A DNA stretch of 31,287 bases from positions 1 through 31,287 of IMG/VR virus record IMGVR_UViG_3300042905_000399; one strand, given 5' to 3'. The position numbers and the translations under genes are program-made. The DNA comes from a virus. The notes under the pieces were generated by a model. That model was given only the letters and a program-made list of their open reading frames with translations, was not told the DNA's origin and made no database searches. Shown here in pieces: positions 2,805 to 17,537 of the stretch; within the stretch, counting starts at the first letter, position 1, and the number at the start of each line of letters is the position of its first letter.

Positions 2805-5195
2805 TTACTTCACCCGTTTTGGATTGCCACTGCTGTCAAGCGTCCATACCTGCCCATTGCTAAATGTCGTATTTACGCCTGAGCGCAATTGTGCCTGTGC
2901 GGCAGCCGGCAGTCCACCATCATTAGCTGGCGCGGCGGGGGTTGCAGTTCCGGCACCGGCTCCTGGCCTTGGTTGCGCTGGCGCGGCGGCCCGGCCATCT
3001 ACGATCCCCTGAGCCATCTCATTAATTTTTTGGTTTTTAAAGGCCTCGGCCAAGCTCGTCGGATTGCCTTTTTCAGCATTGTCTTTGTCAATGCGCGCAA
3101 GCCTCCTGTACTCTTTGGCCATCGGATTGTCTCTTGGCAATCTTAGAAAAGCGTTTAGGGCGGTTGCCCGAGCGTCTTGCGCTTGACCCTGTGAGGTAAC
3201 TTGTTGCCCAGCCAACTGAACACCTTGCTGACCTGCTGCCGTCGCCGCAGTCTGCCTGATACGCTCCTGCGCTTGACCGGCTTCTTCCAGATACCTTACA
3301 TATCCTTCGTCCAGCAGATCTTCCATAGATCTTTGGTCGCCGGCTTTCTGCATCTTCGCGGCGTAATTTCTGGCAAACCTATCCGCCACAGAGGTTCTCT
3401 CGGCTGCAAGTCGAGCCCGCTGTTCACGGTCAAGCTGCTTCCCATACATGTCGATGGCCGAGCCAATCTCCTGGCGCTGCTCTGCCCTGCGCAAGTCTGC
3501 AATCTCTGCGGCTGATTTTGCCTCGGCCAGCTTCTGGGTGCGCTGTGCCTTGAGGTCTTCTGCGTATCCTTGCAGAGCTTCTTTTGATCCCTCAGCAATG
3601 TTTCTGAGTGCATAGGGAGACTGACCGCCCAGGATGCCAAGGCCAGCCTGGAGAAACCGCATACCGCGTTGCTTTTCCATGTCTCTTTGCGACATAGAAC
3701 CGGCCTTGAGCATATCCAAGTAGGCCTTGCGCTCAGGCGTTATGTTGGCTGTTTCGGACCCACCATATGCCCTCCTAATGTTTGCGAGGACTTCTTCAAA
3801 GCCTTTTGGTGCGACCGTGGGGGTCTGTCCAGCAGCGGCAGCGCGCCTTGCAGCTGCTTGTGCCTCAGCGACACCCTCATCGCCTTCAGCTGTAGATGTG
3901 CGCCCCGTCAGCGCAGCGGCGAGTCCAGCAGGCGGTTGAGCGGCAGGTTGAGCCACAGGAGCAGCAGGAGCTGTGGGAGGCGCGGCGGCGGCCGCAAGCC
4001 CAGTGGCAGGAGGCGCAAGAGATCGAGACGCTTCAGGAGCAACAGCCGCAGGAGCCGGCTCAGCAGCCGCAGCAGGGGCAGCCGCAGTGGGAGGTTGAAT
4101 TGCTTCTGGGACTCGACCGCCACCCATGCCGCGTGTGTTAACTATTGCGCCCGTCTGAATGTAAATAGGAACAGCATCCGGCCCAAACTCTCTGGCAATC
4201 TCAGCAATTTTTGCTTGGTCAGCCGCCCTAGCTTCTGGCGAGTTTCTGCCCTGTTCTTCTGCGGCTCTTTGTTCTTGCACCCTTCTTTCTAGAGCTTGCC
4301 TTTCAGCCTGCCGCGCTTCTATTCCTGGTGCATGAATTGCCTCTATCTCAGCCATCCCCATTTTGTATATATCAGAATCCATATCAACACTTCCCGGCCC
4401 CGGCTTATAACCGGCGCTAGGATCGTTGGGGTCTTGGATATACGGGTTGGTATCCGCTGATTCAGCAGCTTGTGGTTCTGCAGCCGCAGCAACCGAAGCA
4501 GGGGCGGCAGCTTGTGATTCTGCTGCTGCGGCAAGTCCCAAATTAACCCGCTCAAGAGGAACGGTAGGGGGAGTGAGGCGAGCCTCCGATTCCCCGGCCC
4601 TCATCTCGTCACTCGGTCCCGCAGTATTTATCAGCGCACCTCTTCTGTCCCTAGAGTACGACACCATTCGTCTGATATCAGAATCTCTATAACCTTCATC
4701 TTTATCTGTACGGCCACTTTCTTTTCTAAAGGCATCTGCAAACCTCTTAAAATCTGCAGGACTATTAAGCAAAATATTAAAGGCCCTGTAATCTTTTAAA
4801 AGCTCATCCTGACTCTCAAAAGGATCAGCCGAGGGAACGCCGCCACTCTGGAATGCAACGATCCCGCCGGAGTTAAAGTTTTCCTCACGGAACATATTGC
4901 CAAGAGGTATCCCCGCTACACCAGACTCGACTCGAGGCATTTCTTCCTGTGCATTGGCTCGCATAGCCTGCTCAATAACGGTTGGCATCTCGCCGCCACC
5001 AACCTGTTGAGCGGCTCGCAGGTTGGCTGCCTCTTGAGCCATCCTGGCTTTCTCACTGATGACGACGGGAACCACATCGGCAGGGATCTGCCCCATCTGA
5101 GCAAGACGGATGATTTGATTCTGAGGCAGAGCTGCCAAATCAGCTATTGACTGCTGATTGGCCTTTTGCACCTTAAGTGCGCCAAGGATGCTCAT
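2805..5195 (-). CDS. Internal virion / ejection-type protein, 796 aa, Ala/Pro/Gln-rich
   Basis: The ATG start is preceded by GGGAG. Residues 1-70 form a conserved-looking helical N-terminus, and a GGIVAFQSGG motif follows at 110-119. This Gly-Gly pattern recurs in internal proteins of environmental phages. Residues about 215-250 and 365-455 are low-complexity Ala/Pro/Gln. Residues about 465-720 are predicted long helices with heptad-like charge (QRDMEKQRGMRFLQAGLGIL starts at 503). The C-terminus ends with FSNGQVWTLDSSGNPKRV. No enzyme motif is seen. It lies between the polyvalent protein and another Gln-rich virion-type protein, with no tape measure gene in the region. That fits an ejected core protein of a short-tailed phage, comparable in role to T7 gp14-gp16 (inference). 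The coding assignment is firm; the function is not. Confidence 0.8.
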   Translation of the reverse strand: MSILGALKVQKANQQSIADLAALPQNQIIRLAQMGQIPADVVPVVISEKARMAQEAANLRAAQQVGGGEMPTVIEQAMRANAQEEMPRVESGVAGIPLGNMFREENFNSGGIVAFQSGGVPSADPFESQDELLKDYRAFNILLNSPADFKRFADAFRKESGRTDKDEGYRDSDIRRMVSYSRDRRGALINTAGPSDEMRAGESEARLTPPTVPLERVNLGLAAAAESQAAAPASVAAAAEPQAAESADTNPYIQDPNDPSAGYKPGPGSVDMDSDIYKMGMAEIEAIHAPGIEARQAERQALERRVQEQRAAEEQGRNSPEARAADQAKIAEIAREFGPDAVPIYIQTGAIVNTRGMGGGRVPEAIQPPTAAAPAAAAEPAPAAVAPEASRSLAPPATGLAAAAAPPTAPAAPVAQPAAQPPAGLAAALTGRTSTAEGDEGVAEAQAAARRAAAAGQTPTVAPKGFEEVLANIRRAYGGSETANITPERKAYLDMLKAGSMSQRDMEKQRGMRFLQAGLGILGGQSPYALRNIAEGSKEALQGYAEDLKAQRTQKLAEAKSAAEIADLRRAEQRQEIGSAIDMYGKQLDREQRARLAAERTSVADRFARNYAAKMQKAGDQRSMEDLLDEGYVRYLEEAGQAQERIRQTAATAAGQQGVQLAGQQVTSQGQAQDARATALNAFLRLPRDNPMAKEYRRLARIDKDNAEKGNPTSLAEAFKNQKINEMAQGIVDGRAAAPAQPRPGAGAGTATPAAPANDGGLPAAAQAQLRSGVNTTFSNGQVWTLDSSGNPKRVK

Positions 5196-5207
5196 GATTG
5201 CTCCCTA

Positions 5208-6287
5208 TCAAGCACGGTTAAGTATTTGTTGAAGACTGAGGTTGGCAAGACCAAGAGGGCCAGCCTCTTCTTGTTTGCTTACCTTGCCGCCTTCTTTAAA
5301 GAATTTACTTGCGCCGTATGCGCCCATTCCAAGGCCTGCCAGTTGAGATATAGGGCTTGGAGGCGGAGCGTACATGGTCTGCACAGTGCCCATCGGTGTG
5401 CCGCGCAATATGTTGGACATGAACTCCAGCTGCTGGTATGGATACCGCTGCTGGTTCATGAAGTCTTGATATTGCTGTCCCAGGCGCTGCTGCTCTAGCT
5501 GCTGTTGCTGCTCGCCAAACTGAGCCTGTAGGCCCATAATATCTTTGCGCTGACCAAACTCAGTCTGGCCAAGCTGTCCCATCTGCCCCGCGCCTTGGAG
5601 TGCAGTCTGCAAACCCTGCAAACCAAGCCCGGCCCCATATTGGCGGGACTGCTCGCGCATCTGCTGCTCACGGGCAAAGTTCTGCTGAGCCTGATCAAAA
5701 GCCGACATGTATCCACGAGCGCGGATGTCACCCATTTGAGTGCCCAGGTTGCGCTGCCGCTCCGCCTCAACGATAGCCTGACGGCCGCCACCAAACGCCC
5801 CGGAGCGAACCGCCTGCGCCTGATCAGCCATCCGCTGCATCTCAGACGAACGCTGGGCTTCACGAAGCTGGGGCTCCATCGCCATTTCGACGAACGGGTT
5901 CATGTACTGAGCAGCGCGTCCAGAGGTGAACTGTCCCATCCGGTAGGGGTCGTACGTTGTGCCCAAGGCTCCGTACGTAGCCGCACCAGCCATCTGCCCA
6001 GCCTGCTGCCCAAGTTGAGACGGCTGCATTTGCGCGGCGGCCGATTGAGCCTGCTGCTGCATAGGAGTAAAGCCGGCAATACGCTCACTCTGGTACTGTT
6101 GGTACGGGTTCTGATTAACGTCCGTCAGAGCCTGCGCTTTGCCAAGAGTCTCCTTGGCATACGGTTTAGCCCACTCTGGGAGGTCTGCTACTTGTGTTTG
6201 AGTGGGGGATGGCGAACCACCACCGCCGCCGCCAATACTCAGAATAAACCAATCGGGGTTGAACAACCACTTCCAAAGCTTAAACAT
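5208..6287 (-). CDS. Gln-rich internal virion-type protein, 359 aa
   Basis: The ATG lies downstream of AAGGAGC and overlaps the previous gene by 8 bases. The protein opens with an aromatic/hydrophobic stretch (MFKLWKWLFNPDWFILSI), then a six-glycine run at 19-24. Next is a short motif common in such proteins, LPEWAKPYAKETLGKAQAL. The centre (about 65-310) is extremely rich in Gln, Ala and Arg, with repeated short helices such as SEMQRMADQAQAVRSGAFGG. The C-terminus holds a KEGGKV motif. I recognise this composition and the LPEW...Y opening from internal or ejection proteins of environmental podoviruses. No catalytic motif is visible. Role as a virion protein is inferred from context. Confidence 0.78.
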   Translation of the reverse strand: MFKLWKWLFNPDWFILSIGGGGGGSPSPTQTQVADLPEWAKPYAKETLGKAQALTDVNQNPYQQYQSERIAGFTPMQQQAQSAAAQMQPSQLGQQAGQMAGAATYGALGTTYDPYRMGQFTSGRAAQYMNPFVEMAMEPQLREAQRSSEMQRMADQAQAVRSGAFGGGRQAIVEAERQRNLGTQMGDIRARGYMSAFDQAQQNFAREQQMREQSRQYGAGLGLQGLQTALQGAGQMGQLGQTEFGQRKDIMGLQAQFGEQQQQLEQQRLGQQYQDFMNQQRYPYQQLEFMSNILRGTPMGTVQTMYAPPPSPISQLAGLGMGAYGASKFFKEGGKVSKQEEAGPLGLANLSLQQILNRA

Positions 6288-6729
6288 TTAGATGCTCCTT
6301 GCGGTAGTCGTCAAACCGCTCATAAAACACAGCTTTCCAGACCTCTGGAAGAATCTCTTTAGCCTTCTCTGGACCGACACAAACATGTGCGGCATAGGCC
6401 AGAATATTGCCAGCAGCGTACCGCAGACTGTGCGCAATCTCAATACCGTGCGGGTCTTTGTCTCGCTCAAACTTATTTGCCGTCTCAAACGAAGAAACTA
6501 CAACCAACCACATGGGCAAGATGTCGTCTTGGATGCTGCGGTAAAACGGGTTGGCAGGAAGATAAACCAGCGCGGTCAGGAAGGCTTGGTTGATGGTGTC
6601 ATCGGATACTTCCTTGTCCCTGTCCACCATGTCATCCCAAGCGTGGGACAAAAACACAAACGCCCGAAACATGTTCAGGGCGTCTTGGTTCCCTCCGAAC
6701 CACTCAAGTTTGCCTTCTTCGATGTTCAT
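6280..6729 (-). CDS. Small helical protein with a DDxxD motif, 149 aa, unknown function
   Basis: The ATG overlaps the stop of the upstream 464-residue gene as ATGA, and the 3' end overlaps the next gene by 8 bases, so translation is probably coupled. The protein looks wholly helical and acidic, with no signal or membrane segment. Residues 28-37 read SHAWDDMVDR, an aspartate cluster D32-D33-x-x-D36 of the kind that binds Mg in class I isoprenoid synthases. A later conserved-looking stretch is LPANPFYRSI at 57-66. I have a weak memory of similar small proteins beside internal virion genes in environmental phages. The length is far too short for a full terpene synthase and no second metal motif is clear, so I assign no function. 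Confidence 0.75.
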   Translation of the reverse strand: MNIEEGKLEWFGGNQDALNMFRAFVFLSHAWDDMVDRDKEVSDDTINQAFLTALVYLPANPFYRSIQDDILPMWLVVVSSFETANKFERDKDPHGIEIAHSLRYAAGNILAYAAHVCVGPEKAKEILPEVWKAVFYERFDDYRKEHLNV

Positions 6730-8120
6730 GCTGGCAGGTACTTCTCTGCGCGAGTGTTCTTGGCCACTTTGCCTTTGCCGGTGGTTTTACCCCGAGCCCG
6801 TTGCACACGGTCCATCATGGCGTACAGCTTACGCGCACCAGCTTCGGTCGAACCGTTGCCCAGTTCGGAGACAATCCGAGCCGGGATTACAAACTCACCA
6901 TCGGCAAGACGGGCGGGACGTTTATTTGCAATCGTGGCAGGGATAGAGTCAGAGACACCGTCACCAGGGCCGCGCAGCAGCCTGCCGCCATCAGAGTAGT
7001 CGCCTAGGTGGGACATGCCTCCCGCTGCCATGCGCTCCTGGCCTGTAGACATGTCTACACCCAAGTCTGACACGCCACCACGGACGCGCTGCATGTCGTA
7101 GACGTTGGCATTGGACATGTTTTCTACGGTACCGCCATCTGCCAACCGGGTGTATTGAGGTTGGAAATACATGCGCTCGCCAGTAGAAGCTCCGGTATAA
7201 CCGGCCTCTGGATCTTCAACTCGACCAGGGCTGTAAGCAAAGCGCATCTGCTCCCGATCTAGTTCGGGCTGGTTGTATTTTGGTTGCTCCAGCAAAACAG
7301 GTGCTGCCGCTGCCAGACCGTATTTGGCCAAGTCTTTACCGGGCATTGCCTTGAATCGTTCGGCAAAAGTTGGGTCCGCGTTACGCGCTGCAATCTCGCT
7401 GGCTCGGAACGCCTCTTTGGGGGTGTTGCCTACGAACTCAGGAGTTACTGAAGGGGTTACTGTGGGAGGTGCAGACAATTGCGACATTGCCTGTAGATGC
7501 TCTTGTGCAGAGATTGGAGCCGCCTGCAGTGCGCTAGGGCTTATGGCGCCAGCCTGAGCCATTGGAGCTGCTTGTGCAGCAATAGCTTCCTGCATAACCG
7601 CTTGCTCTGCCGCCGTTGCCGCCCCAAAGTCATAAGGCGCTCCGGCAAGCCCAGTAACGCCCGCCTGTGCCGCCGGAGTTGCTTGCGCCGCAGCAATCTG
7701 CGCGGCTTGAGGATTGGCGACTGTCATACCGGGTCCGCCAGCAAGTCCAGCGCCCAGGCCAGCACCACCGTAAGCACCCAAACCAGCCATGATGCCCTTG
7801 CCCAGATCACCAGTACGAGCCGTCTGAAGTGCGCCCACGCCAAGGCCAATAGTCGCAGCGTTACTCAGCCCAGGAATGATCGCGGCACCAGCTGCACCGC
7901 CTGTTGCAAACATCAGCCCTGCACCAATAATGGCTGGCAACAGGTTGTCCAAGAACCCCGCCTCAGGCAAGCCCGTCTCAGGGTTAATACTTAGAGACCC
8001 CCCGTGGGCCATTGCCAGCGCCTGGAGCCCTGCAACTTCGCGTGGGCTCATGTGGATAAGCTGTGTATCGGGTCCGCGCCCCTGCGCGGCTAGGTGCTGG
8101 GCGGCAAGTTGTAGGCTCAT
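6726..8120 (-). CDS. Virion/ejection-type protein with hydrophobic Gly/Ala core and conserved C-terminal domain, 464 aa
   Basis: The ATG at 8120 has GAGG nine bases upstream. Residues about 55-135 are a long Ala/Gly-rich hydrophobic stretch (AIIGAGLMFATGGAAGAAII), which could insert into a membrane. Residues about 135-240 are low-complexity Ala/Gln/Pro. The C-terminal 81 residues, from 384, carry a recognisable block: GPGDGVSDSIPATI, RPARLADGEFVIPARIVSEL and STEAGARKLYAMMDRVQRAR. I know this block from internal or injection proteins of environmental tailed phages. It is the first gene of the internal-protein group and is coupled to the DDxxD gene by ATGA. Inference: a DNA-ejection or tail-internal protein that may help form a channel through the host envelope. 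Confidence 0.8.
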   Translation of the reverse strand: MSLQLAAQHLAAQGRGPDTQLIHMSPREVAGLQALAMAHGGSLSINPETGLPEAGFLDNLLPAIIGAGLMFATGGAAGAAIIPGLSNAATIGLGVGALQTARTGDLGKGIMAGLGAYGGAGLGAGLAGGPGMTVANPQAAQIAAAQATPAAQAGVTGLAGAPYDFGAATAAEQAVMQEAIAAQAAPMAQAGAISPSALQAAPISAQEHLQAMSQLSAPPTVTPSVTPEFVGNTPKEAFRASEIAARNADPTFAERFKAMPGKDLAKYGLAAAAPVLLEQPKYNQPELDREQMRFAYSPGRVEDPEAGYTGASTGERMYFQPQYTRLADGGTVENMSNANVYDMQRVRGGVSDLGVDMSTGQERMAAGGMSHLGDYSDGGRLLRGPGDGVSDSIPATIANKRPARLADGEFVIPARIVSELGNGSTEAGARKLYAMMDRVQRARGKTTGKGKVAKNTRAEKYLPA

Positions 8121-8177
8121 TTTTGCCTCACAAGAAAGGGGTTGATCGAGTCTATCATGGGGGGTTTATTTGATCAA
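8121..8177. other. Short intergenic gap, 57 bases
   Basis: One of the few gaps in the transcript. On the minus strand it carries GATCAA twice, the ribosome binding site of the 464-residue gene and a 13-codon ATG frame (8117-8158). The TGA of that frame overlaps the ATG of the gene as ATGA. No clear terminator hairpin or promoter is visible. Confidence 0.4.
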
Positions 8178-9563
8178 TTACCGGCTGATCTCTTCCCAGT
8201 CCAAAGAACCAAGAACCTGATCACCGTTGGATGCAGCCGTGCAAGCCAGCGTAATCTCATAGGCAGTCGCGGTAAATGGGTTGCGCTCAAGCTGGGTGGT
8301 AAACAGCGCAGCCTTCAGAATGTCCACGCTGGTGGCCCCTTGGTTGGAGCCTTGGAAATAGCCCGTTGCCAAGATGCGGCCCCCGGTAGAGGAGAACGAT
8401 GTGCCGGTGATGTTGTACTCAACAGAAGAGTTTGTGCCTGCACTAACCCAAGTGCCGCCTGTCGTGGTGCCGTTGACAACCACCGACCATTGATAGTTTG
8501 CGTTGTTTGTGACACCCAAAATTGATATCGCGGTCAGGATAGCAATGCCGTCCAACCGCGTTGATTTCAAGCGGAACGACACAATGGGGTAAACCGTTCC
8601 GGCAGTAGTCAGGGTTTTCGGGGTTGTGATGGGCGTCCCCGCCGACAACTGCGCTCCGCGTAGTTCATACCCACCCTCAGAGATCACCGTCGAGCAAACC
8701 TGTTTAAGGGTGCTGGCTCCGGTCGTGGCAGCCACGTTGGTCATCTCGTACCGCAGCGGGAGTGAAGCGGTGGTGATGTAGGTGGTGTTGACCAGATTGG
8801 CGTGATCAAAGTTGTGGCACGGGACAAATGACCCGTTGATGATGAAGCCAGTGCGCACCGTACCAAGACCCAGCCACTCAACGTCGAGGTACAGAATCTG
8901 CGCCTTGGAGGAATCAAGCGTCAGGCCAGACGGCCCGGTTCCATCCATCGGGTCTTGGTTCCAATCCGCCTGAGCCACACGGGTGTTGATTGGCGCGCCT
9001 GTCACGCTGCTGCGCTCGACCATGTAGTTGACCGAGCCCTCACGCTCAAAGTAAATGCCGTTAGCTGCGCCGTAGTAGCCAGCCCGCTGGCGCAGGTTGG
9101 CCTTGGCCGCACCAAACACAAACGTGTTCATCACCAACAGGCTCTTACCCGGCTGGTAGGAAAAGACTTTGATGGTCTCGCGGATGATCTCATCCCCACT
9201 GGCCGAGCCAACCGTCATGTTGATCAAACCTTCATCCGCGCTGAACGTGGCCGCTGCGGTTCCAGTGATGCTGTTGACCCACAGGTTGTTGTCCGCGTAG
9301 CGATGAGATGAGTCAAACAGGGTAAGAGGATTGCTGACCCGCAGCCTTCCAAAAGCATCCGTGTTGGTGCCACCAATTGATACCGGGATTGTTTCCATAG
9401 AAGCCACCAATTGACCCAGGATGTTGTCGAGTCGGTTGAAGTACAGACGCAGGATGTCAGCAAACTGATCGTGATACCGCTTCTCGTATTCAACAGGCGC
9501 GGTCGGCAGACGAGGCGCAACGACTCGGTTGAGTTCAAACTCTGATGTGACGATCAGGGTCAT
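8178..9563 (-). CDS. Beta-rich structural protein, probable tail appendage, 461 aa
   Basis: Start and previous stop abut as TAAATG, with GGAAGG just upstream. Residues about 25-50 are a short helix (EKRYHDQFADILRLYFNRLD). This is followed by GRLRVSNPLTLFDSSHRYAD, a motif I associate with phage structural proteins. The rest (about 85-461) is rich in Thr, Ser, Gly and Asn with alternating hydrophobic residues, as in beta-sandwich appendage proteins. No cleavage site or enzyme motif is seen. It lies directly after the nozzle/stabilization-type gene and before the internal proteins, so I infer a tail-associated or capsid-surface structural protein. It could be a tail spike lacking a recognisable enzymatic domain. 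Confidence 0.72.
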   Translation of the reverse strand: MTLIVTSEFELNRVVAPRLPTAPVEYEKRYHDQFADILRLYFNRLDNILGQLVASMETIPVSIGGTNTDAFGRLRVSNPLTLFDSSHRYADNNLWVNSITGTAAATFSADEGLINMTVGSASGDEIIRETIKVFSYQPGKSLLVMNTFVFGAAKANLRQRAGYYGAANGIYFEREGSVNYMVERSSVTGAPINTRVAQADWNQDPMDGTGPSGLTLDSSKAQILYLDVEWLGLGTVRTGFIINGSFVPCHNFDHANLVNTTYITTASLPLRYEMTNVAATTGASTLKQVCSTVISEGGYELRGAQLSAGTPITTPKTLTTAGTVYPIVSFRLKSTRLDGIAILTAISILGVTNNANYQWSVVVNGTTTGGTWVSAGTNSSVEYNITGTSFSSTGGRILATGYFQGSNQGATSVDILKAALFTTQLERNPFTATAYEITLACTAASNGDQVLGSLDWEEISR

Positions 9564-11717
9564 TTAACGCCTTCCGTCAGGACGTACGTCGAGCGACGGG
9601 ACACCCAACTGCCAGTTGACCCCAAGGCCATCTGAACTGACCTTGAACGCCATCTGCCTGCCACGGATGCGCGTGTAAACAATCTGGGTGAACTGCTGCA
9701 CCGTGTAGTTCCGCTGGCCCTGATAGTTCTGCGTGCTGGTTACAGTGGGCGTACCTGCGGCGCTGTAGTTGGCACCAGGGTTCTGGCGCGGGCGCAGTGT
9801 GAACGTGACCTGCGGGTTGTTGACGTACGACCCATCGAACGTGATGTCGGGGATCATCCGCCACGCAAAGCCGTAGTTGTGGCCATCACCGATGTCGAAG
9901 TCGGCAGACTGGATGAAGCAAGAGATCGGGCTGGGCGGGTTGGTGGTGCCGTCATCCACGCCGTTCTCATGGTAGAGCAACTGTCCGTTGTAGGTTGTAG
10001 CCGTGGGGAAGTCCCTCAAAGGCGTATCCAACCACGCCGTGCGCGACAGATTGCCATACGACCAGATGCGCTCCAAGTGGTTGTAAATGACGTACCTGTC
10101 AACTACGGTTGAACCCGCCGAGCAGTAGAACCACCAGATTTCGTTGTAGCCCTCATTGGTGCCGCCGTAAATCTGATACTGCTGCTGGAGGTTGATGTCG
10201 CCAAATATGTACTGACGCAGGGGGCAGTACAAGGTCTCGACCCGGCCAGAGTACATGTAAAACTTATCCAGCCCCATCCAGTACGTGATGTTGGCTGCTG
10301 TGGCCACAGAGTTGGGGCCAGCGATTGAGATGTTGTAGCCCAAAACCTGAAAGCCCCAGATGTACGGGGGGCCAAGGTACTGCATGGAGTAGATGGCTGC
10401 GTCAGTCCAGACCAGAATCTCTTGTCGGGTTTGTTGGTGGGCAACGATGCTCGACCCCGTGGACAGGCGGTAGCTGCCAGCCTGATTGGTTGCAGCGGGG
10501 GTCCATGTGGCGTAGTCTTCTTGGTCAGACCAACGGATTAGCAGCGGGTCTTGCGTCGCCGAGCCGTAGTCATTGCACCCGAAGGCAATTACAAACCGAG
10601 AAGCATCAGACACCGCGACCATGTTGGAAACAGTCGGGCAGCCGGAGTCCGTCGTGTAGGGTGATGGGCTTGTCGGAGACAGCAGGACTGCGCGGTCGTA
10701 AATCAACGGGTTGGCGTTGACCTTCCAAAGATACAAAGCTCCGCCACGCGGGTTGAGGACCAAATCTTGGCCGTAGTTGGTCTGACTCCACAGACGCAAC
10801 TGAGCGCCCACACCAGAAGTTGCGGCTTGTCCCCAACCAGAAGCATTGCTGTATTGATTGACCACGGCACCTGAGTCATGCGCCACGGCGGTGCTGCCCA
10901 CCCCGCGAGTGCAGCCTGTAAAGGTGGTGGATGTCTTGCCTGAGTATGTGATGTATTCACCACCAATACCGATGGCCCCTGAAGCAGAGAAGCCTGTCGT
11001 CGATACGACGGTGATGGTGGTGTCGCTGTTGTTTAAAGCACCGTTGAGTGTCGTTGATGCAGAAATAGTGGTCGTGCCACCCCAGCCTCCAGCGCCCCAA
11101 CCAGTAAGCGTGGTAAAAATTTCTTGCCCAATTGAAATCTGATAGGCAAACGTGGCTGCGCCCGTGGTGCCTGAAGAAGTGGCAGGCGAAGAAACAGTGA
11201 TGCTGTACGTCGAAGCATCAATGTATGTGATGCGAAACTCTTGGTTAAGCGCAGCCGCAGGGATGCCGTTGATAGCGCCCCCAACCCCGGAGATGGTTAC
11301 AAAATCCCCGTTTGACGACCCATACCCTGGGTCATTGACGATAACCGTTGTAGAGCCGTTGGTTGTCGTAAACGCATTGGCGGCAATGACGCTGGTACTG
11401 CGCAGCGGCGTAATGTCGTAGAAATCACCCCCGTTGGACTGCTGAATGTAGTACTTGAGGTGCGTGCCCAAACCCATCAGGTTGTAGCCCGCCAGGGTGA
11501 TCCAGTTCCATAGAGACCGGCACGTGCCCCAGAACGAACCAGTTGGTGGCGCAAGGCCCGTCTCTTGTATTCCGGTGTCCTTCACCCAGCCGCCCAACTT
11601 CTCTGGGTAGCCAGAGCGAAACCGCACCTTGTCCATCTCAAACCAAGTTCCCTCATTGGAGAGGGTGGTTGACTCTCGATTGACGCCTGGGCGTAGTTGC
11701 AGTTTCTGAAGTGGCAT
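9564..11717 (-). CDS. Tail nozzle / stabilization-type protein (P22 gp10 or T7 gp12-like role), 717 aa
   Basis: I chose the ATG at 11717, giving MPLQKLQLRPGVNRESTTLS and AGGACGACC just upstream. A longer in-frame start at 11792 would overlap the lysozyme gene by 68 bases and adds a Cys/Arg-rich leader unlike the rest. The opening, with MDKVRFRSGYPEKLGGW near residue 28, resembles tail tubular B / stabilization proteins that form the tip of podovirus tails. Residues about 110-190 and 220-286 look like inserted beta modules. The second contains EYITYSGKTSTTFTGCTRG, a pattern found in many phage structural proteins. The C-terminal half is beta-rich with many Trp and Tyr, typical of a propeller. 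The family assignment is by eye and the role is inferred from position. Confidence 0.8.
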   Translation of the reverse strand: MPLQKLQLRPGVNRESTTLSNEGTWFEMDKVRFRSGYPEKLGGWVKDTGIQETGLAPPTGSFWGTCRSLWNWITLAGYNLMGLGTHLKYYIQQSNGGDFYDITPLRSTSVIAANAFTTTNGSTTVIVNDPGYGSSNGDFVTISGVGGAINGIPAAALNQEFRITYIDASTYSITVSSPATSSGTTGAATFAYQISIGQEIFTTLTGWGAGGWGGTTTISASTTLNGALNNSDTTITVVSTTGFSASGAIGIGGEYITYSGKTSTTFTGCTRGVGSTAVAHDSGAVVNQYSNASGWGQAATSGVGAQLRLWSQTNYGQDLVLNPRGGALYLWKVNANPLIYDRAVLLSPTSPSPYTTDSGCPTVSNMVAVSDASRFVIAFGCNDYGSATQDPLLIRWSDQEDYATWTPAATNQAGSYRLSTGSSIVAHQQTRQEILVWTDAAIYSMQYLGPPYIWGFQVLGYNISIAGPNSVATAANITYWMGLDKFYMYSGRVETLYCPLRQYIFGDINLQQQYQIYGGTNEGYNEIWWFYCSAGSTVVDRYVIYNHLERIWSYGNLSRTAWLDTPLRDFPTATTYNGQLLYHENGVDDGTTNPPSPISCFIQSADFDIGDGHNYGFAWRMIPDITFDGSYVNNPQVTFTLRPRQNPGANYSAAGTPTVTSTQNYQGQRNYTVQQFTQIVYTRIRGRQMAFKVSSDGLGVNWQLGVPSLDVRPDGRR

Positions 11718-11724
11718 GGTCGTC

Positions 11725-12240
11725 CTACGACAAGAAGAGGGCGCGTTCGTCTTTGCGGCGTTTATCCAGCCCTGGCAGCACTTTACCCCCACCCTTGTTC
11801 CAAAGCAAGAAAGCGTCTGCTGCGCCTTCCCAATCGCCCCGGTTTGCTTTCATGCGGATGCTGCTGCGCTGGAGGTTGCCTAGCCCGAAATTAAAGGAAA
11901 TACTGACCAGAGCGTCAAAGCGGCCTTGACTGCCAACACTGCCGGGAACAAGTCGAAGAACACCACGTTCAAAACTTGCGACATCCGCGTCGAAGAGATC
12001 ATCAATTTCCTTTTTTGACCAGACACGGTTGTCCTCCGGTTTTAGTGGGTACTCCCTGCGAATCATGGGGATGTCGATCTGGGTCTTTCCTTCTGGCCGC
12101 ATCATAGGCAGGCGAATCTGTTCTTGGTACAGCACATGGCCATACCCAATAGTCCAGATGTGCGCCGGGCACAGGTACGGGCGGTTTCTAAACCCCTCGT
12201 ACTTATGCATCAAGTCAGCGCCAACCTTACTTAGTTTCAC
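11725..12240 (-). CDS. Endolysin, GH24 phage lysozyme with Cys at the catalytic Asp position
   Basis: It would cleave the beta-1,4 glycan bonds of peptidoglycan at lysis. From the GTG start the triad is Glu15 (KYEGF), Cys24 (YLCPAH) and Thr30 (TIGYGH), with the classic E-8-x-5-T spacing. FDALVSISFNFG and GLDKRRKDERALFL are the usual C-terminal lobe motifs. No signal peptide or SAR segment is visible, so it needs a holin. I chose the GTG at 12240 because it overlaps the holin stop as GTGA. A TTG at 12270 would add ten residues and overlap the holin gene by 34 bases. Length (171 aa) is normal for T4/P22-type lysozymes. Cys in place of Asp is known in P1 Lyz, so activity is expected. Confidence 0.92.
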   Translation of the reverse strand: MKLSKVGADLMHKYEGFRNRPYLCPAHIWTIGYGHVLYQEQIRLPMMRPEGKTQIDIPMIRREYPLKPEDNRVWSKKEIDDLFDADVASFERGVLRLVPGSVGSQGRFDALVSISFNFGLGNLQRSSIRMKANRGDWEGAADAFLLWNKGGGKVLPGLDKRRKDERALFLS

Positions 12241-13049: not shown

Positions 13050-13529
13050 TTATCTCCCTTGTGCCGTGGCTTCCACGATGAACCAAACAGTTACGCCAAC
13101 AGTGACAAACACCACCAACGCGCCGATCAAAAGGATGAACAACTCGTCCAACTCCTGCTGCCGTTTCTTTGCGGCTTCTTTCTTACGCCTCGCTGCATGG
13201 GCTGCGTCTGCTTCCATCCGCTGTGCCCGAGCCGCAATCCGCATCCAGACATCCATCTTGTTTGCCTGGAAAAACAGCATCTTGATCTGTTCCTCAAACT
13301 GCTTGGCCTGCTCAATGGCCATTTCCAGTTCAAGCGCCTTGCCTAAAGCGGACCCTTTGAACTCACCCTGCTGCGACTTTTGAACAACTTCGATGGCGTC
13401 GGCTTTGGCATCAAAATATTTACCCAGCACCGGCCCGAGCGAGGTGACATCATCAACCGTCGCGGCAACCTTTTTTACAAGCTCAACCGCTGACGATATT
13501 GCAGCAAGGGCGGTGATCGGGTCGATCAT
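13050..13529 (-). CDS. Membrane protein with N-terminal MIDPITA motif, 159 aa
   Basis: The ATG at 13529 overlaps the stop of a 31-codon frame as ATGA. The protein starts MIDPITALAAISSAVELVKK, a pattern I know from conserved proteins of environmental phages placed near lysis or tail genes. Residues about 65-128 are charged and helical (AARRKKEAAKKRQQELDEL). A single membrane span follows at about 130-152 (FILLIGALVVFVTVGVTVWF), leaving a short C-terminal tail. It lies just before the two other small membrane genes of the lysis block. The first ten codons or so are duplicated 750 bases upstream (14252-14280). The function is unknown; a lysis or membrane role is inferred from the span and position. 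Confidence 0.75.
   Translation of the reverse strand: MIDPITALAAISSAVELVKKVAATVDDVTSLGPVLGKYFDAKADAIEVVQKSQQGEFKGSALGKALELEMAIEQAKQFEEQIKMLFFQANKMDVWMRIAARAQRMEADAAHAARRKKEAAKKRQQELDELFILLIGALVVFVTVGVTVWFIVEATAQGR
13501..13529. repeat. Direct repeat copy A flanking the oxygenase insertion
   Basis: 29 bases matching 14252-14280 with two mismatches by eye. This copy covers the first codons of the intact 159-residue gene. The two copies lie in the same orientation, about 750 bases apart, and enclose the AT-rich oxygenase gene. Confidence 0.85.
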
Positions 13530-13621
13530 GATGCGCGTTGGGCCTGATGCCCAGACGAAAAAAAATTTACCAGTGCAATGCGGCTGGCTTCCTCAAGAAC
13601 ATCGTCTAATACAATCAACAT
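13526..13621 (-). CDS. Possible 31-codon ORF, remnant or linker peptide
   Basis: An ATG frame at 13621 overlaps the oxygenase stop by seven bases and ends with a TGA that overlaps the next ATG as ATGA. The peptide begins MLIVLDDVLEEASRIA, then becomes polar. Two tight junctions argue that it is translated and couples the oxygenase to the downstream gene. The VLDDVL opening resembles the first strand of 2OG-oxygenase-type proteins, so it may be the leftover start of a lost gene. No further evidence; low confidence. Confidence 0.35.
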   Translation of the reverse strand: MLIVLDDVLEEASRIALVNFFSSGHQAQRAS

Positions 13622-14175
13622 TTTGTATATACCAAAGCAAAAGTTAATCTGTAAAACGAGGCAATATATGATTGAGGGCGGATTGTATGAGGTATCTTTG
13701 CGTCAAATGCAATTATTCTGCCGGGGGTATATGCGCTGGCAAACCTGATATTTTTACCAGCCTCATCATAGAACAGCGTTTCCCCATGCCAGCCATCTTG
13801 CCAGTCTAGATTTACGTAGTACAAAACAACTTTATCCTCTGGGTGCGTATGAATAAAATTAACATCCGCAGGTGTGGATAAATTTAAAACAGCTTTGCTA
13901 AGCGTATGCCCGACGAGCTCTTGCCCGACCGGGGTTTGCTGTAGCCGCTCTATGTATTCAAGCGACTTTAAATCATCTTCAGAAAAAGCAGAGTGTAAAA
14001 ACTCATATCCTTTTTTCTCTGGCGTAACACTGTCTGCCCAACCAATTTTAAAAAACGAGTTTCTCATAAACTGATAAACCCATGAACGATACGACATGTC
14101 AAACACGCTATCGTACAGCCGCAGCTTGCGTCCGTTGTCAACTTCAGCTTCAATAATTGTTTGGTTTTGCAGCAT
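13615..14175 (-). CDS. 2-oxoglutarate/Fe(II)-dependent oxygenase (prolyl-hydroxylase-like), 186 aa
   Basis: These enzymes couple decarboxylation of 2-oxoglutarate to hydroxylation of a protein, nucleic acid or small molecule. The C-terminal half shows the double-stranded beta-helix core: NFIHTHPEDKVVLYYVNLDW (first iron ligand His109), GETLFYDE at 131-138, PGRIIAFDAKIPHTIRP with distal ligand His163, and Arg176 as probable 2OG anchor. The usual HxD reads His-Thr-His here, so the acidic ligand is unclear; Glu113 or Asp114 might serve. The start ATG has no clear ribosome binding site, unlike its neighbours. Hand-counted GC is about 42% over 13621-14160, against 57% and 65% in two sampled lines of the upstream ATP-grasp gene. 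With the flanking direct repeat this points to recent acquisition. The substrate is unknown. Confidence 0.85.
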   Translation of the reverse strand: MLQNQTIIEAEVDNGRKLRLYDSVFDMSYRSWVYQFMRNSFFKIGWADSVTPEKKGYEFLHSAFSEDDLKSLEYIERLQQTPVGQELVGHTLSKAVLNLSTPADVNFIHTHPEDKVVLYYVNLDWQDGWHGETLFYDEAGKNIRFASAYTPGRIIAFDAKIPHTIRPQSYIASFYRLTFALVYTKC

Positions 14176-14217: not shown

Positions 14218-14280
14218 CTACAATCTGAACATACTCATCGCAAAAGATACGGCAGCAAGGGCGCTTATCGGGTCGATCAT
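14218..14280 (-). pseudogene. 20-codon remnant of the MIDPI-type gene
   Basis: The ATG at 14280 overlaps the TctC-like stop as ATGA, the junction expected for a real gene. The frame starts MIDPISALAAVS, closely matching the first twelve residues of the 159-residue protein (MIDPITALAAIS), then diverges and stops after 20 codons. I read it as the broken or displaced 5' end of that gene, left behind when the oxygenase segment entered. It could instead be a decayed paralogue. Confidence 0.6.
14252..14280. repeat. Direct repeat copy B flanking the oxygenase insertion
   Basis: Matches 13501-13529 at 27 of 29 positions in the same orientation. It encodes the start of the truncated MIDPI frame and abuts the TctC-like gene. 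Confidence 0.85.
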
Positions 14281-15101
14281 GGTATTGGTATGAGCGCATA
14301 TTCTCGCAGCAACTGGCTGCGAAGTGTTGCAGCATCTGCTTTAAAAAACGGTTGTGGCAGGGCAGCCATATTCTCAGCGGTCACGACTTTCTTCGCGGCT
14401 TGTGCGACCTTGCCATTCTCATTTCCGGCTTTGACAAACAAAGCAGTCCAAGAGAAATCAGGAACACCCGTTTGATCAAGCCGCCCCAGCGAACGCAGGT
14501 GGCCACTTTGAACCAAGGCCGCCGCAGAACTGGTTGCGCCTCCAAATGCGTAGTCCAGAATGCCAGACGACAGGTCTGTGTACAGTTGGGTTATCTGCTT
14601 GTAATTTATTTGCTGCGTGTTGGTGCCGATGGTCTTGTCCAAAATGTGCATGGACGCATTCGCCGACGGGTGTGCAGTACCGCCCTTGAGGCCGTTGTTG
14701 GCCTTGGAAAGAGCCACCAGCCCCGCCACATCCTTGACCGGAGACTTGGCAGGCACCAAGATGTTCATCGGCGCATGGGTCAACCCAACGACCGGCACGA
14801 ACTCGCTGATGGGGTCAAAGTCTTTTTGCGGCAGCGTTTTGGCCACAAAAGGAACGGCGAAGCTGCCGATCAAGATGTGATCCCCGCTGAGTTGGTTGAA
14901 GGCCCGGAATCCGACAACACCGTTCCCGCCTGGGGCGTTTGTCACGACTACGTCCACCCCAAGCTCTTTGGCCAGCAGCGGCTGGAGAAACCTTGCCGCT
15001 TGATCCGACAGGGAGCCTGGGCCCGATGTGGTGACGATGGTCAGCGTTGACGCAAACACATTGGTCGAGATCAAAGCCAACGCCAACAGAAACCGCTTCA
15101 C
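14277..15101 (-). CDS. TctC/Bug-family periplasmic solute-binding protein, 274 aa
   Basis: The GTG start overlaps the ATP-grasp stop as GTGA. Residues 1-17 are a Sec signal peptide: MKRF, a hydrophobic core, then NVFA before the mature start, with no lipobox Cys. The mature chain shows the fold signatures of tripartite tricarboxylate transporter binding proteins. These are TSGPGSLSDQAARFLQPLLA, NAPGGNGVVGFRAF, the MNILVPAKSPVKDVAGLVAL segment, GTAHPSANASMHIL, then YTDLSSGILDYAFGG and LVQSGHLRSLG. At 274 residues it is shorter than the usual roughly 320. No TctA or TctB membrane partner is nearby, so it would have to use a host transporter or do another periplasmic job. The family is huge in Burkholderiales and rare in phages. 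GC is like the neighbours, so it is well settled. Confidence 0.9.
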   Translation of the reverse strand: MKRFLLALALISTNVFASTLTIVTTSGPGSLSDQAARFLQPLLAKELGVDVVVTNAPGGNGVVGFRAFNQLSGDHILIGSFAVPFVAKTLPQKDFDPISEFVPVVGLTHAPMNILVPAKSPVKDVAGLVALSKANNGLKGGTAHPSANASMHILDKTIGTNTQQINYKQITQLYTDLSSGILDYAFGGATSSAAALVQSGHLRSLGRLDQTGVPDFSWTALFVKAGNENGKVAQAAKKVVTAENMAALPQPFFKADAATLRSQLLREYALIPIP

Positions 15102-15988
15102 AGTGCAGCCTCCATCGCGTCAAACTTTGCGTTGACTTCGGCCTCGGTTGCACCCACGCCGTTGACCCGGATGAAATCTCCGCCCTTGTCTTTTGCGTCC
15201 GTGCGAGGCAGCAAACCAAACGATTCAATCAACCGCCGCTTGCTTCTCGGGATTGGAGAGCCCCAGTACGAACGATTGACGAACACTGCCGGGGCTACGT
15301 CTGGGATGGGCAAGCCAACCATGTGAGCCAGGGCCGCATCAAGGCACGGGTACTTGTTCGCCAGACCCTGCGTGTAAACCTGCGGGGCCCGTGGGTTCCA
15401 GTCGATTGCGCACCATACGCCTTGGTAGGACAAGAACTGAATGTCGTGCAGGCCGCCAGTGATGTTGAGCCGCTTGCAGGCGGCGGTTATCTGCTCACAG
15501 ACGCCGACATACTCATCCGGCGTTGCCATGCGCAGTTCCGCAGGCTTCTTGGTGTCCAGATGCTTGTGCCGTTGGGCGGCGATCACATGGATGTCGCCAG
15601 ACCTTCCCACAGAAAAATGGATGTCCAAATCTTCCACTGGAAAGCCCAGATGCGGCTGATGCACCCACCCGCCCGTGGCGGAGTTGCGGGGCTTTGCAAG
15701 CGTGCCCGAGGGGGCGTCTTCCGGCCTCTCAATGACAACCGTGGGCAACGTGGCCAAGCCCGTCTCGTGAAGACGATCACGATTCAGGATTTTTTCCAGG
15801 GACGACGCCGGCATGTATGCCGGGTGCCCACCCACGCTGACTGCCGTGTGATCGGAGACAAGCAGAACCGAATCTGCCCCGTCTTTGAAAGGCGTTACCC
15901 CGATCCCCAGCCTGTCGAGCGTGGGCTTATACGCCGCAAGACCAATCCTTTGGTCTGCAAGTGGCATATAAACATTTACTGCGGCCAT
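15098..15988 (-). CDS. ATP-grasp ligase-like protein, 296 aa
   Basis: ATP-grasp enzymes join a carboxylate to an amine or thiol through an acyl-phosphate. Visible motifs are the N-terminal turn LEKILNRDRLHETGLATLPT (about 64-83), ATP-binding LAKPRNSATGG with Lys99 and a Gly loop at 106-107, and the metal site HDIQF (Asp182) with AIDWNPRAP (Asp196, Asn198, Arg200). This is the order expected for the fold. The N-terminal domain is short, which fits small amino-acid or peptide ligases better than biotin-type enzymes. The ATG has GAGG upstream and overlaps the DUF4376 gene by 13 bases; the 3' end shares GTGA with the TctC-like gene, so the two are co-translated. The substrate is unknown. It may modify a virion, cell-wall or small-molecule target. 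Confidence 0.82.
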   Translation of the reverse strand: MAAVNVYMPLADQRIGLAAYKPTLDRLGIGVTPFKDGADSVLLVSDHTAVSVGGHPAYMPASSLEKILNRDRLHETGLATLPTVVIERPEDAPSGTLAKPRNSATGGWVHQPHLGFPVEDLDIHFSVGRSGDIHVIAAQRHKHLDTKKPAELRMATPDEYVGVCEQITAACKRLNITGGLHDIQFLSYQGVWCAIDWNPRAPQVYTQGLANKYPCLDAALAHMVGLPIPDVAPAVFVNRSYWGSPIPRSKRRLIESFGLLPRTDAKDKGGDFIRVNGVGATEAEVNAKFDAMEAAL

Positions 15989-16566
15989 GTAATTGCCTCG
16001 ACAGCTTCAATGGTCGTAGCGGCCTTCACGAGGGCGACCAATTGTTCTTCCGTGGTGAAGCAACTTTGAACGTGCGCCGTTACCGCCTGAACCACGGCAG
16101 CCATCTCGGTTGCATCCAAGTCCAGCCATGTCTCGTTCAGCGCTTTCCAGCTTACCGTTTGGACGGCACCACTTTGCAGCGCAAGATTGGCATTGTTCAG
16201 CGCCGCCTGAGAGCCTCTGTCGGTCGTGATCGTCGCGTTGTAAATCTGAACACCCGCCACTTCCGCCCTCCACCTGTCGTTTGCAAGCTCAGCCATCTTG
16301 TTTGCTTTTGCAATCTCAAGCGTGATGGGCACGGGCTTATTCATCGTGCCGGACGAACCGACGGCAACCGCGATGGTGTGCTCATCTTGCTCAATCCAGT
16401 ACGCGATGGGCGCGTACATTTGCACGATTGCTTCCAACGTCTCACCAACATAAGGCAGCCGGGTGCCAATATGCATGGTTTGACGGCCAGCGGAGGTGTA
16501 AACAATCTCCATAGAATGCGCCGCTTGGTCAACGGCGATGACGTTGTATGTGTACTCAATGCTCAT
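15976..16566 (-). CDS. DUF4376-type tail-fibre-associated protein, 196 aa
   Basis: I chose the ATG at 16566 (MSIEYTYNVIAVDQ), which overlaps the adhesin stop as ATGA and has GGGAG upstream. An ATG twelve codons earlier lies inside the adhesin gene. The N-terminal part (1-70) is a small beta domain. The C-terminal part from about 85 matches DUF4376 as I know it: RWRAEVAGVQIYNATITTDR then SQAAL, a WLDLDATEMAAVVQAVTAHV segment, and a closing TIEAVEAITW. Proteins with this domain usually sit directly after tail-fibre genes and are thought to be fibre assembly or tip proteins. The position after the glycine-rich adhesin agrees. Confidence 0.8.
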   Translation of the reverse strand: MSIEYTYNVIAVDQAAHSMEIVYTSAGRQTMHIGTRLPYVGETLEAIVQMYAPIAYWIEQDEHTIAVAVGSSGTMNKPVPITLEIAKANKMAELANDRWRAEVAGVQIYNATITTDRGSQAALNNANLALQSGAVQTVSWKALNETWLDLDATEMAAVVQAVTAHVQSCFTTEEQLVALVKAATTIEAVEAITWPQ

Positions 16567-17537
16567 GTGATACTCCCAAGACGGGTGCCAAAGGCAACCC
16601 ATGTGATATTTGAATTTCCTGTGATTGCGCCGCCGCCTGAGCCGCCGGAATAGGGGCCTGGACGAGTATTGCTTGTTAGACCTGAAGTGTTTCCGCCAGT
16701 GCTACCAGCAGAGCCCCAGCCACCCCCTGCGCCGCCTGCTCCACCTGTTACGCTTACAATCCCCACGCCCCCTGCTCCACCGCCCCCTGCTGCTGAAGAT
16801 GTGCCAGAAGAACCGGCGCTTCCAGGGTATGAAGAGTCTTGCCCAGTAGCAGGCCCCCCTGCTCCGCCAGAAGAATTTGCAGCAACACCTGATCTACCGC
16901 CGCCACCACCACCGCCCCCAACGCAGGCAAGGCGACTATCTTTATTACCGTCCACATAGGTGTAAATGCCGGTTCGGCCTCCTCCGCCCCCACCCCCACC
17001 ACCGCCTATAGTGTTGTTATTGGTGATGCTAACCGCGACTGATACAGACAAAGCCAACCCACCAGCAGCACCAGCGGAACCAGCAACACTTGAGCTACCG
17101 CTACCACCAGAACCAGCACCGCCGTTACCGCCCATGCCAATGATGAAACCGCCGTTAATTAAGTCCACCCCGCTGGGGAACGACCCATTAATAGTTAAAC
17201 CAGGCGTGCCAGTGCTATTGCTTGAGCAGTAAACACCGCTGGCAATAGTGGCGATGACTTTGCTCGACTGATTCCACCCAGCATTTACAGCCAGCGTACG
17301 GAGGTTGGCGTTGGTCTGGTTTGACGAGATTGTGAATGAGAATGTGTTGGACTTGCCATAAGCATCATTCAAAGAAATGGCACCGCTGGCCTTGCCCAAT
17401 AGTGCACGAACAGCGGCATCATTTAAACTGATTTGTGCCGTGCCACTATAACCAAGCTCCACGTTAATGGATTGGTTCAAACCACTTGTAGTGGCCGTAC
17501 CCCCAAGGGAGATTGGCCCGGAAGATACCATTGTCAT
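16563..17537 (-). CDS. Glycine-tract tail-fibre adhesin, 324 aa
   Basis: The ATG has GAGGT upstream. The N-terminus carries VSSGPISLGGT and SLNDAAVRALLGKASGAISL (37-56), common in fibre proteins of environmental phages and likely the attachment part. Residues about 65-130 form a beta domain. From about 129 to the end the chain is glycine-rich, with runs of ten (178-187) and eight glycines (207-214) and many GGxGG units separated by short polar loops. This composition is that of gp38-type adhesins, such as phage S16, where glycine stretches pack as polyglycine II helices and the loops between them bind the receptor. Inference: this is the receptor-binding tip. The neighbouring DUF4376 gene may assist it. 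Confidence 0.82.
   Translation of the reverse strand: MTMVSSGPISLGGTATTSGLNQSINVELGYSGTAQISLNDAAVRALLGKASGAISLNDAYGKSNTFSFTISSNQTNANLRTLAVNAGWNQSSKVIATIASGVYCSSNSTGTPGLTINGSFPSGVDLINGGFIIGMGGNGGAGSGGSGSSSVAGSAGAAGGLALSVSVAVSITNNNTIGGGGGGGGGGRTGIYTYVDGNKDSRLACVGGGGGGGGRSGVAANSSGGAGGPATGQDSSYPGSAGSSGTSSAAGGGGAGGVGIVSVTGGAGGAGGGWGSAGSTGGNTSGLTSNTRPGPYSGGSGGGAITGNSNITWVAFGTRLGSIT

Follow-up and report, generated by a model that had tools for sequence, protein, structure and literature searches.

An old viral gene encoding a TctC/Bug-type solute-binding protein is maintained under purifying selection in the window, that is, the 31,287 nt of the IMG/VR virus record IMGVR_UViG_3300042905_000399. It belongs to an accessory cassette lying in a variable slot of a phage genome, between the tail-adhesin genes and those of a probable lysis region, and is directly preceded by a gene that accompanies it in all its close relatives. 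Together with the recurrence of TctC genes next to genes for ATP-using enzymes in other phages, this suggests that viruses boost or redirect the uptake of small acids by their hosts.

The TctC gene and its product

The frame (Table 1) is a real gene rather than a chance one, since four other viral contigs keep it open, with low dN/dS (see below). Its product matches the Pfam TctC profile PF03401 with an E value of 1.2e-17 and 64.8 bits, against a curated cut-off of 27, which bears out the TctC/Bug-type identity proposed in an earlier note on this DNA. The best-matching stretch corresponds to profile positions 2-180 of 274, and the homolog from the viral contig L004 scores similarly (64.1 bits); searches of the window protein against PHROG and NCBIfam profiles gave no match. 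The earlier note had also described the protein as secreted, and export is predicted from its signal-like N-terminus: the putative signal (MKRFLLALALISTNVFA, followed by ST) has a K/R start, a hydrophobic core whose 10-residue Kyte-Doolittle mean reaches 2.46, and a plausible A/S cleavage site. On inspection, signal-like n, h, and c regions are visible at the N-termini of both the window and the L004 proteins.

Table 1. Features of the TctC locus and its surroundings in the window
Feature	Position	Strand	Remarks
742-aa virion protein, comparison anchor	9564..11792	-	phrog_3287, 2.6e-51
159-aa protein, downstream slot edge	13050..13529	-	phrog_32327, 1.1e-10 (PHROG label: function unknown)
2OG-Fe(II) oxygenase-like protein, downstream of TctC	13615..14175	-	Annotated phage relative
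TctC/Bug-type solute-binding protein gene	14277..15101	-	274 aa, GTG start, PF03401 match
Signal-peptide-like N-terminus MKRFLLALALISTNVFA	15051..15101	-	Sequence and Kyte-Doolittle hydrophobic core
GTGA overlap, stop of 296-aa gene/start of TctC	15098..15101	-	Read from sequence
296-aa protein, directly upstream of TctC	15098..15988	-	87-97% identity in L001, L002, and L004
Shine-Dalgarno-like GGAGG	15109..15113	-	7 nt before the TctC GTG start
DUF4376 tail-fibre-type protein, upstream slot edge	15976..16602	-	PF14301, 6.5e-21; phrog_10508 (tail fiber), 2.7e-25
Gp38-like tail adhesin	16563..17537	-	PF05268, 1.7e-5; phrog_10745, 1e-12

Modelling of the fold, which the earlier note had put forward as a check, gave a confident result: the AlphaFold2 model, built on an alignment of 31 viral and bacterial sequences, has a pLDDT of 84.8, and its closest counterpart is Bug27 (PDB 2qpq; TM 0.78/0.73, E 1.1e-17). 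Bug/TctC proteins (Bug27, TBP, BugE, MatC, TphC, AdpC, and BugD) account for all of the best 17 PDB matches, with TM values of about 0.69-0.78. The predicted structure is thus the two-lobed type II periplasmic-binding-protein fold of the Bug kind. Since both the PF03401 cut-off is passed and the Bug fold recovered, the protein is treated as a shortened and divergent member of the family. It is 35-50 residues shorter than typical Bugs and, when aligned with bacterial Bugs, the window clade displays a shortened C-terminal region and lacks the PTxAExG segment; as a consequence of these losses, docking to TctAB could have been lost. The same alignment shows that the domain-1 loops PGG(x)nD and PGG(N)G are kept, as SGPGSLSD and NAPGGNG, respectively. 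In Bug27, docking indicates that backbone amides and a threonine hydroxyl, both from a domain-1 loop, contact the carboxylate of the ligand (PMC11452294), and SGPGSLSD is the counterpart of this carboxylate-anchoring loop.

Genomic context

The window encodes tail fibre, Gp38-like adhesin, virion, DNA-ejection, and head proteins, as recognized with Pfam and PHROG, and these genes flank TctC, so that its placement in a phage late region stands. One conserved virion protein shares 68% identity, across 401 residues, with Puniceispirillum phage HMO-2011, and the large terminase of a 66-kb relative of the window resembles those of Pelagibacter phages and of two phages of uncertain host. For these two reasons, the source is taken to be a podovirus-like aquatic phage, probably related to HMO-2011. 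The terminase relatives span diverse hosts, and no tRNA genes were found in either the window or the 66-kb relative. Near the two ends of this relative lie two versions of the 742-aa virion gene (L012:3236-5245 and L015:4182-6410), and it may therefore join two strains or be circularly permuted. A giant 2405-aa protein without assigned function is encoded in the related phage (L012:11761-18978).

A possible join of two strains at the ends of the 66-kb relative would be in line with the idea that bacterial DNA was misassembled into a viral contig. The probability of such an artefact, or of contamination, is nonetheless negligible, as it is refuted by five independent contigs, from different metagenomes, that share the same phage flanks and junctions.

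On the downstream side, the 159-aa protein has one hydrophobic C-terminal segment; its gene heads a conserved block and keeps this position in relatives, and the block is probably the lysis region. Between this gene and TctC, the product of 13615-14175 is 38% identical to an annotated 2OG-Fe(II) oxygenase of Synechococcus phage S-SCSM2R and 75% identical to its counterpart in L004, while its match to the Pfam 2OG-FeII_Oxy_3 profile reaches only 0.02. PHROG 274 labels this family "DNA endonuclease V", which looks wrong because the best annotated relative is the oxygenase.

On the upstream side, the 296-aa gene directly precedes TctC in all five contigs of the window clade, and the two genes overlap by 4 nt in the window, L001, L002, and L004. 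Its product matched nothing in Pfam, NCBIfam, or the PDB, and relatives sought in phages, plasmids, and genomes were restricted to the same contigs; one genome match (L076) reads like a DNA-ligase-type protein and was set aside as a chance match. By eye, the K..L...G..TLPTVVI and DWNPR motifs look ATP-grasp-like, so that the protein may be of this kind, but every profile test failed to support it, including an hhalign comparison with ATP-grasps that gave a probability of 0.3% from an alignment of four rows.

Conservation, selection, and phylogeny

The earlier note had considered that the frame might prove interrupted in related phages. It is intact in four other viral contigs, three of them at 98-100% and L004 at 74% protein identity. 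Estimates of dN/dS (NG86, with dS of 0.24-1.6) are about 0.03 between the window and L001/L002 and 0.14 between the window and L004, and the gene is thus under purifying selection. The oxygenase-like gene follows TctC in the window, in the 66-kb relative, and in L004, where their junction is again a 4-nt overlap.

In a 61-row tree, the window TctC proteins form a virus-only clade (100/100), whose stem measures 1.93 substitutions per site. About 2.9 substitutions per site separate the clade from the nearest bacterial rows, and at this distance of nearly 3 a Burkholderiales origin or host is not supported. A scan of genome contigs for close bacterial relatives returned only one 25%-identical protein, and the best match among 398 Pseudomonadota genomes has 30-35% identity. 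Altogether, the intact and constrained frame, the kept neighbors, and the long-stem virus-only clade indicate that viruses have long maintained TctC and did not acquire it recently.

The very long stem could also be read as the mark of a Bug fold that has acquired a new function without small-molecule binding, for instance as a virion or lysis-associated periplasmic protein, and the shortened C-terminal region, as well as the location between tail and probable lysis genes, would fit. This is nonetheless improbable: the loops that anchor the ligand have been retained under constraint, and full-length Bugs occur in other phages at quite different sites, for instance with a gp47-like gene on one side and a gp46-like gene on the other.

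An accessory cassette in a variable slot

With the 742-aa virion protein as an anchor, at least 599 related viral stretches were found; 80 loci were fetched, 50 of which extend at least 4.5 kb upstream and could be read. TctC is absent from 49 of these 50, the sole carrier being a contig already known. In L124, which is 93% identical in the anchor, the slot, bounded by the tail genes and the 159-aa gene, is filled with unrelated small ORFs; three relatives have the 2OG-like gene but no TctC. Because slot content differs among relatives and TctC is missing from nearly all of them, the cassette is accessory. Given this context, its patchy presence, and purifying selection, TctC qualifies as a putative phage accessory metabolic gene.

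Such rarity (one carrier among 50 readable relatives) and accessory status are what would be expected of selfish or neutral moron cargo recently taken from a host and of no benefit to the phage. This is very unlikely, however, in view of the selection test: dN/dS is 0.03-0.14 and the frame is unbroken down to 74% protein identity. Conservation of the three-gene order in L004 and the long-standing virus-only clade also argue against it.

TctC genes in other phages and their enzyme neighbors

TctC was identified by alignment-based scans in another 28 viral contigs (L048-L075), which reach 374 kb in length; in one of them (L049), the flanks resemble host or prophage DNA. Each of the nine full-length phage copies that were checked scores above the Pfam cut-off. 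In the 61-row tree, one phage clade (100/100) unites fourteen of the viral copies and other virus-only groups are separate; at least two changes between viruses and bacteria are forced by starred branches, and the best tree has seven.

Many viral TctC genes are flanked by an SbcD-like and an SbcC-like gene (gp47/gp46 kind), and TctC directly adjoins an ANL (AMP-binding, PF00501) or PP-loop (SGGxDS) gene in 21 of the 28 viral contigs, although these loci are partly related by descent and hence do not represent 21 independent events. In contrast, no such adjacency was found at the 14 bacterial loci, out of 20 fetched, with a profile-recognized TctC (Fisher p 2.7e-6, computed as 20/28 versus 0/16 and ignoring shared descent). 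As large phages have several PP-loop genes each, some of the adjacency to TctC may be due to chance. In related phages, an AMP-binding or a PP-loop enzyme occupies the same position between the gp47-like, TctC, and gp46-like genes; L056 has an ANL gene where L057 has a PP-loop gene, which looks like the exchange of one enzyme kind for another. L203 was found through its ANL gene alone and has a TctC C-terminus directly before it, a fragment that Pfam does not recognize. The 4-nt overlap at the upstream junction is in modest excess for TctC, with 13/30 versus 68/342 for other same-strand pairs.

In large phage contigs, TctC is present in two or three copies. In the 374-kb L212, two TctC genes each adjoin a PP-loop gene, as does a gene for a weakly NMT1/phosphonate-binding-like protein; this contig also encodes a DctP-family binding protein (PF03480, 1.4e-44) without obvious signal peptide. 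In large phages, a second kind of TctC has immediately downstream a conserved protein of about 209 aa (MKYIFVAGAPGSKWSSVVKNIYYSP...; L209:5622-6251, L211:6053-6682, L212:6196-6816), of which the tested copy has no Pfam match. In L074 (9007-13302) and L070, TctC lies near a gene for a radical-SAM protein; the L074 locus also has a RimK-like ATP-grasp (PF08443, 3.4e-18) near TctC, and its adjoining tail-adhesin-like gene appears to hold a Hint/intein-like region.

Membrane partners

No TctA (PF01970) was detected in the window, the 66-kb relative, or L004, records that may be fragments, and a complete TctABC transporter, with TctA in the same genome segment, was thus not found in them. As far as TctA is concerned, the absence of membrane partners remarked upon in the earlier note stands, but it is ordinary, as most bacterial Bugs are orphans without a local permease (PMC5812351, PMC11452294). 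Among 14 viral records searched, TctA (PF01970, 5.5e-45) was found in one, the 343-kb contig L208. There (4982-8210), the order is a signal-bearing SBP-like protein, TctA, and a PP-loop ATPase, with overlaps of 1 and 4 nt, and a large array of 22 tRNA genes plus a tmRNA lies next to this operon; the SBP-like protein next to TctA matches TctC weakly.

Possible role during infection

The best explanation, to which an even chance can be given, is that the window protein acts as an orphan Bug that feeds a host TctAB-type permease, with a co-expressed enzyme using the ligand. Late in infection, TctC would be made together with the upstream 296-aa protein and the downstream 2OG-oxygenase-like protein. 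Once exported to the periplasm, it would bind a small carboxylate or an amino acid and deliver this ligand to a host permease of the TctAB type; in bacteria, a few permeases are likewise thought to serve the many orphan Bugs. The adjoining cytoplasmic enzyme could then activate or use the imported compound, presumably to the benefit of infection. The missing TctA is no objection to this, since orphan Bugs are the rule in bacteria.

Alternatively, the protein could have a periplasmic function other than transport, such as sequestering a ligand, altering host sensing, or occupying an envelope protein and thereby excluding other phages. The TctC slot is variable and lies beside the tail adhesin, and host-range and exclusion genes are common in such slots. 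In addition, loss of the C-terminal part and of PTxAExG could mean that the transport contact was given up, and BctC, with the BctE sensor, works in signalling besides transport (PMC5812351). This reading is nonetheless unlikely: the search yielded no candidate receptor or sensor, and the recurrent pairing with ATP-dependent enzymes, as well as the phage TctA, point to metabolism. Although sequence alone cannot decide between them, uptake and enzymatic use are favored over the receptor-blocking role because an ATP-using enzyme is encoded next to TctC in most of the phages and one phage has its own TctA.

More tentatively, and with less than even odds, several phage lineages could share a recurrent capture-and-activate module, made of an exported Bug and an interchangeable carboxylate-activating, ATP-using enzyme, with which the phage would import and activate a chosen acid. 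The ATP-grasp-like protein may hold the enzyme position in the window, and at least one jumbo phage would supply its own TctA permease. To our knowledge, few phage-encoded nutrient-binding proteins are understood beyond PstS. If the proposed role is correct, maintained and recurrent Bugs of aquatic phages, linked to ATP-using enzymes and once to a phage TctA, would add carbon or amino-acid uptake capacity to hosts; they would also help to address the function of orphan Bugs and the identity of their permeases.

Comparison with known systems

The view that a phage-borne case of the TctC type is without precedent has to be abandoned. A 2014 study described a tctA domain from SUP05 viral contigs (PMC4164917), and BFVD holds five proteins from uncultured phages labelled "PBP2_Bug_TTT" or "Bordetella uptake" (E down to 9e-16), in addition to the 28 further viral contigs described above. 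Phage TctC is thus not unique to the window and phage Bug proteins are already labelled in structure libraries; no paper discussing TctC/Bug binding proteins in phages was found in the open-access literature. The SUP05 gene is likewise a tripartite tricarboxylate transporter component on viral contigs, but it is a permease domain, known from a domain match only, whereas the window gene encodes a binding protein. The BFVD proteins of uncultured Caudovirales (such as A0A6J5T247 and A0A6J5M1T7) are phage-encoded and have the Bug fold as well, but they share no more than 16-18% identity with the window protein and are longer in most cases.

Compared with Bug27 of Bordetella pertussis and other orphan Bugs, the window protein belongs to the same PF03401 family, shares the two-lobed fold (TM 0.78 with 2qpq), and has no adjoining TctA. 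It differs in being phage-encoded, only about 22% identical, shorter by the 35-50 residues mentioned above, and tied to a fixed upstream partner gene.

A functional parallel is offered by cyanophage PstS, a phage-carried periplasmic phosphate-binding protein that is thought to use the host transporter. Virally encoded pstS has been mentioned elsewhere (PMC6359870). PstS and the window TctC, whose export is predicted, are alike as phage-carried periplasmic binding proteins; however, PstS is of another family and ligand class and serves an ABC transporter, whereas TctC would serve an ion-driven TctAB permease.
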